From: Bacteroidota bacterium | Lineage (GTDB): Bacteria > Bacteroidota > Bacteroidia > Flavobacteriales_F > PHOS-HE28 | Direction: 5' to 3' | Length of the DNA: 64,000 bases | Assembly: GCA_018267055.1 (NCBI GenBank) | Contig: JAFDZF010000100.1 | Coordinates: 1-64,000 of the forward strand | Part shown: positions 18,118-21,432 of the stretch, one piece after another | Layout of the letters: each line of letters starts with the position of its first letter | Position numbering within the stretch: the first letter of the stretch is position 1 | The notes under the pieces: generated by a model | Database searches by the model: none | The model's input: only the letters and a program-made list of their open reading frames with translations | What the model was told of the DNA's origin: nothing | Position numbers and translations under genes: made by a program

Positions 18118-18725
18118 TGACCGCCGTGCCGCGCAACGCTCCGCCCCCGCTCACGCCCGAGCTGCTCCTCGCGGCCTATGCCCGCGGCTACTTCCCCATG
18201 GGCGATGAGGCGGGTACGATCCACTGGCACGACCCCGACCCGCGGGCCATCCTGCCGCTGGAGGTGCTGCACCCGAACGCCCGCTTCCGGCGCGCCTCGC
18301 GCAGCAGCGGCCTCCATTGCACGCTGGACCAGGACTTCGCCGGTGTGATGCGGCAATGCGCCGTCACCCATGGCGACACTTGGATCACCGAAGGAATGAT
18401 CTCGGCCTACACCGCCCTGCACGCTCTCGGCCACGCCCATAGCGCGGAGACCTGGCAGGACGGGCACCTGGTGGGCGGGCTCTACGGAGTACGCATCGGC
18501 GCCGCCTTCTTCGGGGAGAGCATGTTCAGCCGCGTGAGCAACGCCAGCAAGGCGGCCCTGTACCACCTGGCCGCCCACCTGCGCGAGCGCGGCGCGCTGC
18601 TGTTCGACACGCAGTACGCCAATGACCATACGCGTTCCCTGGGCGCGGTGGAGATCCCGAGGGACGTGTTCAAGGCGCGGCTTATCGCGGCGGTGAAGGC
18701 ACCGTTCCGCTTCCACGGCCCTTAG
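18117..18725 (+). CDS. aat: Leucyl/phenylalanyl-tRNA-protein transferase
   Basis: A 202-residue enzyme that adds Leu or Phe from tRNA to N-terminal Lys/Arg of proteins, making them N-degrons for ClpS/ClpAP. Seen: LLLAAYARGYFPMGDE, IHWHDPDPRAILPLE, TWITEGMISAYTALHALG, GLYGVRIGAAFFGESMFS and FDTQY, the conserved core. The best start is a GTG at 18117 whose G is the last base of the upstream TAG stop; a second GTG at 18126 is possible. It ends convergently over the phosphatase gene by 4 bases. Confidence 0.95.
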   Translation: MTAVPRNAPPPLTPELLLAAYARGYFPMGDEAGTIHWHDPDPRAILPLEVLHPNARFRRASRSSGLHCTLDQDFAGVMRQCAVTHGDTWITEGMISAYTALHALGHAHSAETWQDGHLVGGLYGVRIGAAFFGESMFSRVSNASKAALYHLAAHLRERGALLFDTQYANDHTRSLGAVEIPRDVFKARLIAAVKAPFRFHGP

Positions 18726-19396
18726 GACCGGCTGCGCTGCACGTCGAGCGTGGTGGCATTGCGCTCCTGCAGGTAGCGCTGGTACGTATCGGTGTAGGCG
18801 GCCCGGTGGTCGATGACCTCGGCCACCCGGCCCAGCAGGCCGATCACCAGCTCGGTGGCCTCGCGCAGGCCGTTGGCACCGCCGCTGTGGGCGGTGATGA
18901 TGTCCGCATCGCCACGCGCGATGACGTGCTCCGTGAAGAGGGGGCCGCTGCTGCGGCCGATCATCACGCGCAGGCCGCATCGCCGGGCCACGGGCAGGTC
19001 GATGGCGTCATCGAAGAAGAACGCCACCTGCTCCGGCACCAGCTCGTAGGTGCGGAGGAAGTGCTCGAAGGCGTCGGGCTTGTTGATGAAGCCCATGTAG
19101 AGGCCGTGGAACCGCTCGCGCTGCACGAAGCGTTCGGCATGGCCGTTGTGCTGGCCGGTGATCACCGCGGCAGTGGGCAGGGCGCCGTCCTTCAGCCAGA
19201 GGGCGAAGCGCAGCATGTTCACGCCCAGGCTGCCCACTTCGCTGAAGGGGCTGCCGCCTTCGAGGTCCTTCCAGCCGTCGTTGAAGACGCCATCCCAGTC
19301 GAAGAGGACGGCGCGGATGCCGCTCGCGCGGCGCACCAGCTCGTTCTGCGGCCGCAGGAAGCGGGTGCCGAGGGCGGTGAAAGCCTGCAGGTCCAT
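18722..19396 (-). CDS. kdsC: KdsC-like HAD phosphatase
   Basis: A 224-residue HAD-superfamily phosphatase. Motif I is LFDWDGVFNDG with Asp33 (nucleophile) and Asp35; motif II lies in AAVITGQHNGH, and motif III/IV in FFFDDAIDLPVARRCGLRVMI. The cap-less layout and DGVFNDGW resemble 3-deoxy-D-manno-octulosonate 8-phosphate (Kdo-8-P) phosphatase. The protein is longer than typical KdsC (about 170-190) by an N-terminal arm and a C-terminal helix. Position next to kdsA supports a Kdo role in LPS core synthesis. Other sugar-phosphate substrates are possible, so the symbol is tentative. Confidence 0.72.
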   Translation of the reverse strand: MDLQAFTALGTRFLRPQNELVRRASGIRAVLFDWDGVFNDGWKDLEGGSPFSEVGSLGVNMLRFALWLKDGALPTAAVITGQHNGHAERFVQRERFHGLYMGFINKPDAFEHFLRTYELVPEQVAFFFDDAIDLPVARRCGLRVMIGRSSGPLFTEHVIARGDADIITAHSGGANGLREATELVIGLLGRVAEVIDHRAAYTDTYQRYLQERNATTLDVQRSRS

Positions 19397-19462: not shown

Positions 19463-20485
19463 TCACCCCGCGATGGCCTTCATCAGGTCCTGGATGTCCA
19501 GCATGCCGAGCTGCTTGCCGTTCTCGCTCACGCTGAGGGTATCCACCTTCTTCTCCTTGAAGAGCTTCTGGGCCTCGTCCAGCAAGGCTTCCGGAGCAAC
19601 GACGATCGGCTCCCCATAGGTGAGCGCGCTCAGCTTCTTCGCCAGGAACTTGTTGCCCTCCTTCTCCAGGCCGCGGCGCAGGCCGCCGTCGGTGAAGACG
19701 CCCTTGTTCTTCCCCTTCGCGTCCACCACCATCACCGCGCCGAAGCCGTGCTTGGTCATCTCCACCAGGGCCTCGCTCACGGTGGCGCTGTCCTTCACCA
19801 CGGGGTTGCTGCGCGAGAGCACGTCCTTCACCTTCATGGTGATTAGGCGCGTGTGCTCATAGAACTGCTGCGTGCCGATGGTGGTGAAGTGGTTGTCGGT
19901 GAGCTGTTTCATCAGCTTCCAGGGCACCGTGATGGTGTGCACGCCGAGCTCCACGGCATTGCGCACGTGCTCGATGGTGCGCACGCTGCTGAACATGATC
20001 TTGGTGTCGTAGCCGTAGTAGTTCACGGCGTTCACGCACTGCTGCACGAGGGCGAGGGCATCGTGGCCCTGGTCCTGCAGGCGGCCCACCAGCGGGCATA
20101 CGTAGGTGGCCCCGGCCTGCATGGCCATGTAGGCCTGCTGCAGGGTGTACACCAGGTGCACGTTCACCAGGATGCCCTCGTTGCGCAGCATCCGGCAGGC
20201 GCGCAGGCCTTCCAGGCTCACCGGGATCTTGAAGACGGTGGTCTCCTTCTTCAGGCCCATCTTCAACTGGCGCTTGGCCTCCTTCACCACCTCCTCGGCG
20301 GTCTCGCCCAGGGCTTCCACCTGCAGGATGGGCACCTTCTTGGCGAGGTCGAGGATCATCTTGTCGATGTTCGTGACCCCGCCGCGGTGCATGAAGGTGG
20401 GCGTGGTGGTGAGGCCGGTGAGGAAACCGAGGCGGAAGGCCTCATCGATCTCCTTGATGTCGGCGCTGTCGAGGTAGAGCTCCAT
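19463..20485 (-). CDS. Transaldolase (TalC/FSA-like) fused to a CBS-domain pair
   Basis: A 340-residue two-part protein. Residues 1-215 are a TalC/fructose-6-phosphate-aldolase-type barrel: LYLDSADIKEI opening, TTTPTF, Schiff-base Lys86 in FKIPVSLEGL (same place as Lys85 of E. coli FSA), VYTLQQAYMAMQAGATYV and RLQDQG. Residues about 230-340 are two CBS motifs (SEALVEMTKHGFGAVMVVD, GVFTDGGLRRGLE, VDTLSVSENGKQLGMLDIQDLM), the module that also ends KdsD/KpsF arabinose-5-phosphate isomerases. The gene sits between the KdsC-like gene and kdsA, where kdsD would be expected. It may supply or regulate arabinose 5-phosphate; that is inference, and plain transaldolase activity remains possible. Confidence 0.85.
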   Translation of the reverse strand: MELYLDSADIKEIDEAFRLGFLTGLTTTPTFMHRGGVTNIDKMILDLAKKVPILQVEALGETAEEVVKEAKRQLKMGLKKETTVFKIPVSLEGLRACRMLRNEGILVNVHLVYTLQQAYMAMQAGATYVCPLVGRLQDQGHDALALVQQCVNAVNYYGYDTKIMFSSVRTIEHVRNAVELGVHTITVPWKLMKQLTDNHFTTIGTQQFYEHTRLITMKVKDVLSRSNPVVKDSATVSEALVEMTKHGFGAVMVVDAKGKNKGVFTDGGLRRGLEKEGNKFLAKKLSALTYGEPIVVAPEALLDEAQKLFKEKKVDTLSVSENGKQLGMLDIQDLMKAIAG

Positions 20486-20586: not shown

Positions 20587-21432
20587 TCAGGCGGTGACGT
20601 TCACGTTCCGGTATTTCACCTCAGCGGCGTGCAGGTCCAGCAGGGGCTTCAGGAACTCCTCCAGGTCGTACACGCAGAGCTGGCTGGCGGCATCGCAGAG
20701 CGCGGTGCTCGGGTCGGGGTGGGTCTCGATGAAGACGCCGTCCACCCCGGCGGCCACACCGGCCCGGGCGATGGTGGGCATCACCTCGCGGTTGCCGCCG
20801 CGCGGATCGGCGCTGGGGATGCCGTACTTGCGGATGCTGTGCGTGATGTCGAACACCAGCGGGTAGCCGGTCCTGCGCAGATGGTAGAAGGCGCGCGGGT
20901 CCACCACCAGGTCGTTGTAACCGAAGGTGTAACCGCGCTCGGTGAGGATGATCCGCGAGTTGCCCACGCTCTCGCACTTCTGGGCGGGCTTGATCATGTT
21001 GTCCGGCGCAAGGAACTGGCCGTGCTTCAGGTTGATCACGGCGCCGGTCTTCGCGGCCTCCACCACCAGGGTGGTCTGCATGCAGAGGTAGGCGGGGATC
21101 TGGAGCACGTCCACCACCTCGGCGGCCGGCTTGGCCTGGTCGGGGTAATGGATGTCGGTGAGGATCGGGAAGCCGAAGTCCTTCTTGATGCGCTGGAGCA
21201 CCTTCAGTCCTTCTTCCAGCCCCGGGCCCTGGTAGAAGTCCACGCTGCTCCGGTTGTCCTTGGTGAAGCTGCTCTTGTAGATCACCGGCACCCGCAGGCG
21301 CTGGCTCACTTCCTTGAGCTTCTCAGCCGTGCGCAGCATGATGTCCTCCGTCTCGATCACGCACGGACCGCTGATGAGGAAGAGGGTGTCGGCACCGCAG
21401 GCGATGCCTCCGACATTGACGATCTTGGTCAT
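20587..21432 (-). CDS. kdsA: 3-deoxy-8-phosphooctulonate (Kdo-8-P) synthase
   Basis: A 281-residue aldolase that condenses phosphoenolpyruvate with D-arabinose 5-phosphate to Kdo 8-phosphate for LPS. Seen: FLISGPCVIETED, YKSSFTKDNRSS, LTDIHYPDQ, VVDVLQIPAYLCMQT, VINLKHGQFLAP, RGYTFGYNDLVVDPR and DITHSIRKYG. Cys24 in SGPC stands where metal-independent enzymes such as E. coli KdsA have Asn, so this should be the metal-dependent class. An unusual clear Shine-Dalgarno-like GGAGAA precedes the ATG, and a -7 box lies at 21467-21474. A 101-base gap separates it from the transaldolase-CBS gene downstream. Confidence 0.97.
   Translation of the reverse strand: MTKIVNVGGIACGADTLFLISGPCVIETEDIMLRTAEKLKEVSQRLRVPVIYKSSFTKDNRSSVDFYQGPGLEEGLKVLQRIKKDFGFPILTDIHYPDQAKPAAEVVDVLQIPAYLCMQTTLVVEAAKTGAVINLKHGQFLAPDNMIKPAQKCESVGNSRIILTERGYTFGYNDLVVDPRAFYHLRRTGYPLVFDITHSIRKYGIPSADPRGGNREVMPTIARAGVAAGVDGVFIETHPDPSTALCDAASQLCVYDLEEFLKPLLDLHAAEVKYRNVNVTA

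Follow-up and report, generated by a model that had tools for sequence, protein, structure and literature searches.

We suggest that a transaldolase-CBS fusion encoded in the Kdo locus of a Bacteroidota genome is a non-orthologous replacement for the arabinose-5-phosphate isomerase KdsD, supplying D-arabinose 5-phosphate (A5P) by whichever chemistry its barrel uses. On the strength of comparative sequence analysis, we put the probability of this reading at about 0.83. The gene lies at 19463..20485 on the minus strand of the stretch of 64,000 nucleotides that was analysed (the window), and its product of 340 residues would deliver A5P to KdsA for the synthesis of Kdo and, in relatives, of 8-amino-Kdo. 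Judged by gene content, the fusion stands in place of KdsD in roughly one in four Kdo-making Bacteroidia genomes. The step matters because A5P formation commits carbon to Kdo, a sugar of the lipopolysaccharide inner core in Gram-negative bacteria. E. coli does not survive the loss of its two A5P isomerase genes, kdsD and gutQ (PMC10448790).

The N-terminal part of the protein is a TAL barrel (residues 1-210; 19856..20485, minus strand), identified from an AlphaFold2 model, PDB matches to transaldolases and 12 invariant residues. Pfam places TAL_FSA over residues 3-202 (129 bits) and two CBS domains within residues 219-337. Lys86 (codon 20228..20230, minus strand) is aligned with the Schiff-base lysine, K85 in FSA and K86 in T. 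acidophilum. By sequence, the barrel is closest among solved structures to three transaldolases, 3r8r, 1vpx and 1wx0. The AlphaFold2 model is confident (pLDDT 91.8), but less so in how the two domains sit relative to each other (pTM 0.74). A Foldseek search with this model returned transaldolases (TM about 0.9 to target), with 1vpx, 3s0c and 3r8r as the top PDB entries. Against TIGR00875, the fructose-6-phosphate aldolase (FSA/TalC) model, the fusion scores 164 bits, which is below the curated cut-off of 245.95. No SIS domain was matched in the fusion by Pfam or NCBIfam, residues 1-210 being TAL_FSA. Since full-length homologues, 54-93% identical to the window protein, are found across Bacteroidota, the fusion is not a chance product. 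The TalC/FSA-type barrel with Lys86 and two CBS motifs claimed in a preliminary description of this DNA is thus upheld by the Pfam domains and the alignment, although the invariant active-site changes in the barrel, described below, had escaped it.

The CBS pair (residues 213-337; 19475..19849, minus strand) is, by its profile and structure matches, of the KdsD/KpsF type. It scores 62.7 bits against TIGR00393, at model positions 153-267, whereas the best CBS family in NCBIfam outside KdsD reaches 39. In the PDB it matches best, with 64 bits (next 42), the CBS pair 4o9k, which comes from an arabinose 5-phosphate isomerase. These two best matches agree with the earlier claim that the protein uses the CBS module of KdsD. 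The 4o9k structure was reportedly solved with CMP-Kdo. The pair in the fusion may respond to a signal from the pathway, with CMP-Kdo or CMP-8-amino-Kdo as the probable ligand, and the transaldolase barrel would have taken over this regulatory module from the enzyme that it displaced.

The host genome, which is 99.5% complete, appears to need such an enzyme. It has KdsA, KdsB, KdsC and WaaA, and since the remainder of the Kdo pathway is present, the cell needs A5P. However, KpsF/KdsD and SIS profile searches found no SIS-CBS KdsD in the window or in the host genome, which confirms the absence from the window noted in the preliminary description and extends it to the whole genome. The KpsF/KdsD profile gave only sub-cut-off, CBS-type matches, namely the fusion, IMP dehydrogenase and a nucleotidyltransferase. 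A hidden KdsD or SIS-only arabinose-5-phosphate isomerase was considered and rejected, because every SIS protein found by profile search was identified on reading its sequence as GlmS (two domains), a bifunctional PGI/PMI-like protein, MurQ or GmhA. The host also encodes TalC as a second, separate protein whose transaldolase residues are normal, and thus the fusion is not its housekeeping transaldolase.

The two enzymes were also surveyed across the class. In a sample of 396 Bacteroidia genomes, each at least 90% complete, the fusion is present in 81, KdsD in 243 and KdsA in 311. Among the 311 KdsA-positive genomes, KdsD occurs alone in 232, the fusion alone in 74, both in two and neither in three; in the 74, the fusion would be the sole source of A5P, as KdsD would be in the 232. 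Fisher's test for this exclusion gives p = 3e-65, a value that is not corrected for phylogeny, type-1 KdsA (defined below), fusion and phosphatase being largely co-inherited. Three weak KdsD calls (G251, G288 and G340; E about 1e-21 to 1e-22) were set aside, by E-value alone, as the fusion's own CBS pair; counting them as KdsD would raise the number of KdsA-positive genomes with both from two to four. Among the three genomes with neither, one (G260) has a fusion truncated by the end of its contig, with the phosphatase next to it, and the other two (G447, G537) are fragmented MAGs from a genus whose other members have KdsD. In at least seven families (f3, f9, f11, f48, f53, f74 and f86), some members have only the fusion and others only KdsD, which indicates that the exchange occurred repeatedly. 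Fusion-only strains include the culturable Chryseolinea serpens. In a phylum-wide sample of 248 genomes, all four with the fusion are without KdsD. Thus, the near-perfect mutual exclusion among KdsA-positive genomes gives strong comparative support to the replacement of KdsD that had been inferred earlier. One member of the window's genus (G408) has none of kdsA, fusion and KdsD. Fusion-type genes in KdsA-negative genomes are confined to a single family, f46 (L130-L134; G288, G317, G342, G387 and G366), and these homologues are 36-42% identical. They are full-length with the CBS pair intact, the Schiff-base lysine and other active-site residues are lost, and they lie beside other conserved genes as apparent pseudo-enzymes.

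The gene neighbourhood also points to Kdo synthesis. In the window, kdsA (20587..21432, minus strand; TIGR01362, 335 bits, cut-off 314) lies upstream of the fusion and a KdsC-like HAD phosphatase (18722..19396, minus strand), its conserved partner, lies downstream, with gaps of 101 and 66 bp and all on one strand. The same order is found in 22/22 loci of the window's genus with enough flanking sequence and in 27/43 loci of more distant Bacteroidota, 12 of which also have kdnA and kdnB; about one third of the distant fusion loci do not adjoin kdsA. The position between phosphatase and kdsA given in the preliminary description is therefore borne out by coordinates and profile matches, and the linkage to kdsA, whose absence from relatives would have spoken against its proposal, is retained. 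In one locus (L073), kdnA, kdnB, kdsA, fusion, phosphatase and kdsB form a single run. Because of such runs with kdnA, kdnB and kdsB, the fusion is, on gene-order evidence, a member of Kdo and 8-amino-Kdo operons, and by their gene content these operons are otherwise complete for CMP-Kdo8N. Three public MAGs that carry this Bacteroidota locus (L011, L062 and L077) go under the names Chryseobacterium gleum, Chitinophaga pinensis and Candidatus Saccharibacteria in their titles, which may be misassigned.

The operon phosphatase is a divergent member of its family. It scores 60 bits against the KdsC profile, below the cut-off of 208, and has no Pfam match at all, but its predicted fold is that of KdsC/YrbI and its HAD residues D33, D35, K106, D129, D130 and D133 are invariant. 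The host has two KdsC-like phosphatases, this divergent one in the operon and a typical KdsC on another contig (C93; L125). Thus, the KdsC-like neighbour of the preliminary description is present, with the refinement that it is a second copy and that the more typical KdsC is elsewhere. Strong homologues of the operon phosphatase occur in 31/32 sampled fusion genomes and in 1/43 KdsD-only genomes, the single exception being G461. Since the phosphatase occurs without the fusion in G461 and G408 and has a KdsC fold, it is probably the operon's Kdo8P phosphatase. For the same reasons, we rejected it as a supplier of glycolaldehyde in a two-step route. In G408 (L147), the phosphatase is kept though kdsA and the fusion are gone, and either Kdo loss or a second role of the phosphatase is possible.

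KdsA itself falls into two types. The fusion-associated (type-1) KdsA, defined by a signature set consisting of the window gene (20587-21432) and the kdsA genes of L009-L088 and L145, has invariant D61, Y117, M120 and H139 near the sugar/PEP site (E. coli numbering), where the KdsD-associated enzyme has A, F, R and K. Residues K60, N62, R63, S64, K138, R168, H202, E239 and D250 are kept. The substrate of type-1 KdsA might be a variant of A5P; however, the genome G461, where this enzyme is paired with KdsD, counts against it. The operon of G461 reads kdnA-kdnB-kdsA-phosphatase-kdsB, with no fusion between kdsA and phosphatase; its KdnA and KdnB match the solved 5k8b (8-amino-3,8-dideoxy-manno-octulosonate transaminase) and 5k8c (Kdo 8-oxidase) at E about 1e-127. 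Its single KdsA is nested within the fusion-associated clade (nodes 0.88-0.97), and its KdsD is encoded elsewhere, beside recQ, the usual site of kdsD. That type-1 KdsA is served by KdsD in G461 and by the fusion in other lineages is an argument that KdsD and the fusion supply one and the same sugar, A5P, and by this comparison the two look interchangeable. Another genome, G498 (L135, L153 and L154), has both systems complete: type-1 kdsA, fusion and phosphatase in a row on the one hand, and on the other a KdsD gene next to recQ together with a type-2 kdsA as second copy.

The active site was compared with E. coli FSA (identical in sequence to 1l6w) and TalC enzymes, using T. acidophilum numbering and an alignment of 42 diverse fusion homologues, the others being 54-93% identical to the window protein. 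Twelve residues are invariant: D6, T26, T28, E57, K86, N108, H110, C130, L132, R135, S167 and R169. Among these, Asp6, Thr26, Lys86, Asn108, Arg135, Ser167 and Arg169 are retained from TalC/FSA in the kdsA-linked clade, and Glu57 is of the transaldolase type; the characteristic TalC features, i.e., the Schiff-base lysine, Asp6, Glu at 57/60 and the Arg/Ser/Arg phosphate site, are thus all present. The residues for the dihydroxyacetone donor in TalC (Asn28, Thr110, Ser130, Phe132) are absent, with Thr, His, Cys and Leu in 42/42 sequences; relative to both references, the replacements in all kdsA-linked copies are N28T, T110H, Ser/Ala130 to Cys and Phe/Tyr132 to Leu. The FSA residues Gln59 and Tyr131 are absent as well, with Glu57 and Leu132 there. 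In FSA, Asn28 and Ala129 stabilize the dihydroxyacetone donor, and the triad Gln59, Thr109 and Tyr131 keeps the catalytic water in place (PMC13259622); in TalB, the site for the acceptor phosphate consists of two Arg and one Ser (PMC3962226). Since the donor residues are replaced and the phosphate residues retained, the donor half of the site has been rebuilt and the glyceraldehyde-phosphate half kept. As the donor side is altered in every kdsA-linked copy, the fusion is therefore predicted to be no ordinary transaldolase or FSA. A5P is fructose 6-phosphate without the C1 hydroxymethyl group, and the configuration of the remaining chain matches; it therefore suits a site with a rebuilt donor half and a kept phosphate half.

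This pattern of residues would accommodate either a glycolaldehyde plus glyceraldehyde 3-phosphate (GAP) aldol reaction or the conversion of a pentose 5-phosphate. A5P may sit in the barrel with Lys86 at its C1 end and Arg135/Ser167/Arg169 around its phosphate, in the position that C2-C6-P of fructose 6-phosphate takes in transaldolase, minus the C1 hydroxymethyl group. We consider one-step conversion of ribulose 5-phosphate or ribose 5-phosphate to A5P the likeliest chemistry, at about even odds, and favor it since the operon is otherwise complete and has no source of glycolaldehyde. Glu57 and His110 could then act as an acid/base pair, with Lys86 as an imine-forming or electrostatic catalyst. 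A little short of even is our confidence in the full proposal that the barrel has become a pentose-5-phosphate isomerase/2-epimerase (Ru5P or R5P to A5P), which kept the CBS pair of the displaced enzyme and constitutes a second, unrelated isomerase family widespread in Bacteroidota. Ranked after pentose-phosphate conversion, and tentative by comparison, is an A5P aldolase that, like FSA, joins glycolaldehyde, as an enamine on Lys86, to GAP; such an enzyme would still replace KdsD, and its chemistry is the one put forward in the preliminary description. Free glycolaldehyde is not a main metabolite, and no gene producing it was seen in the otherwise complete Kdo8N operons. Moreover, the water triad of FSA, Gln59-Thr109-Tyr131, has become Glu57-His110-Leu132. 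On the other hand, an aldolase is consistent with the retention of Asp6, Glu57, Lys86 and the phosphate residues together with the changed dihydroxyacetone-binding positions (roles: PMC13259622), and the preferred donor and acceptor of E. coli FSA are glycolaldehyde and GAP, which it converts to A5P in vitro (PMC6298115, PMC9947464).

Readings in which the fusion makes no A5P are improbable to various degrees. The least improbable is that it makes a different aldose phosphate, which type-1 KdsA would condense with PEP to another 3-deoxy-ulosonate, so that no Kdo is made and no KdsD is needed. The signature near the substrate site and the presence in G498 of the two systems with a different KdsA type for each fit this idea, but type-1 KdsA scores above the Kdo8P-synthase cut-off with the nine residues listed above kept, is encoded together with the Kdo-acting enzymes KdnA, KdnB and KdsB, and in G461 is served by KdsD alone. 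Slightly less credible still is an ordinary transaldolase or fructose-6-phosphate aldolase that entered the operon by chance, with the CBS pair regulating pentose-phosphate flow. Though the family fold and Schiff-base lysine would allow this, such an enzyme would leave the fusion-only genomes without a source of A5P, and both the shortfall against the FSA/TalC model (164 bits, cut-off 246) and the replacement of N28, T110, S130 and F132 in all kdsA-linked copies of the 42-sequence alignment count against it. A housekeeping transaldolase, in particular, is ruled out by these replaced donor residues and the normal TalC elsewhere in the genome. Hardly credible is a regulatory pseudo-enzyme, i.e., an inactive barrel with a CMP-Kdo-sensing CBS pair, A5P then coming from an unrecognised enzyme. 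The f46 relatives, which lack the lysine and keep the CBS pair, offer a precedent; however, only genomes without kdsA show the loss of the lysine, and the catalytic and phosphate residues are all invariant in the kdsA-linked clade.

The proposed KdsD replacement can be set against several known systems. It resembles KdsD/KpsF/GutQ (TIGR00393) in CBS type, place in Kdo synthesis, phyletic complementarity and presumed product, but is without SIS and has a transaldolase barrel with a Schiff-base lysine as catalytic domain. With the TalC transaldolases (3r8r, 1vpx, 3s0c) it shares the fold, Lys86, Asp6, Glu57, Asn108, Arg135, Ser167 and Arg169, and differs by Asn28Thr, Thr110His, Ser130Cys, Phe132Leu and the C-terminal CBS pair. 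E. coli FsaA/FsaB (1l6w) are similar in their class I aldolase fold and in the synthesis of A5P by FSA in vitro; the fusion differs in the lack of Gln59 and Tyr131, the change of Thr109 to His, the CBS pair and the Kdo operon context. Homologues of Shewanella kdnA/kdnB (5k8b, 5k8c) flank kdsA-fusion in several Bacteroidota, and no description of the fusion as a member of kdnA/kdnB operons was found in the open PMC literature. The same literature gave no relevant description of a transaldolase-CBS fusion or of a KdsD replacement, though subscription journals may hold one.

If the reading is correct, a second, unrelated solution for making A5P is in use in several families of Bacteroidota, which would close a gap in the pathway of many genomes and correct the assignment of a gene that is probably annotated as a transaldolase. 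It would also be a case in which a regulatory domain has been retained while the catalytic domain was swapped. Finally, a physiological A5P-forming role of transaldolase/FSA-type enzymes would become directly testable.
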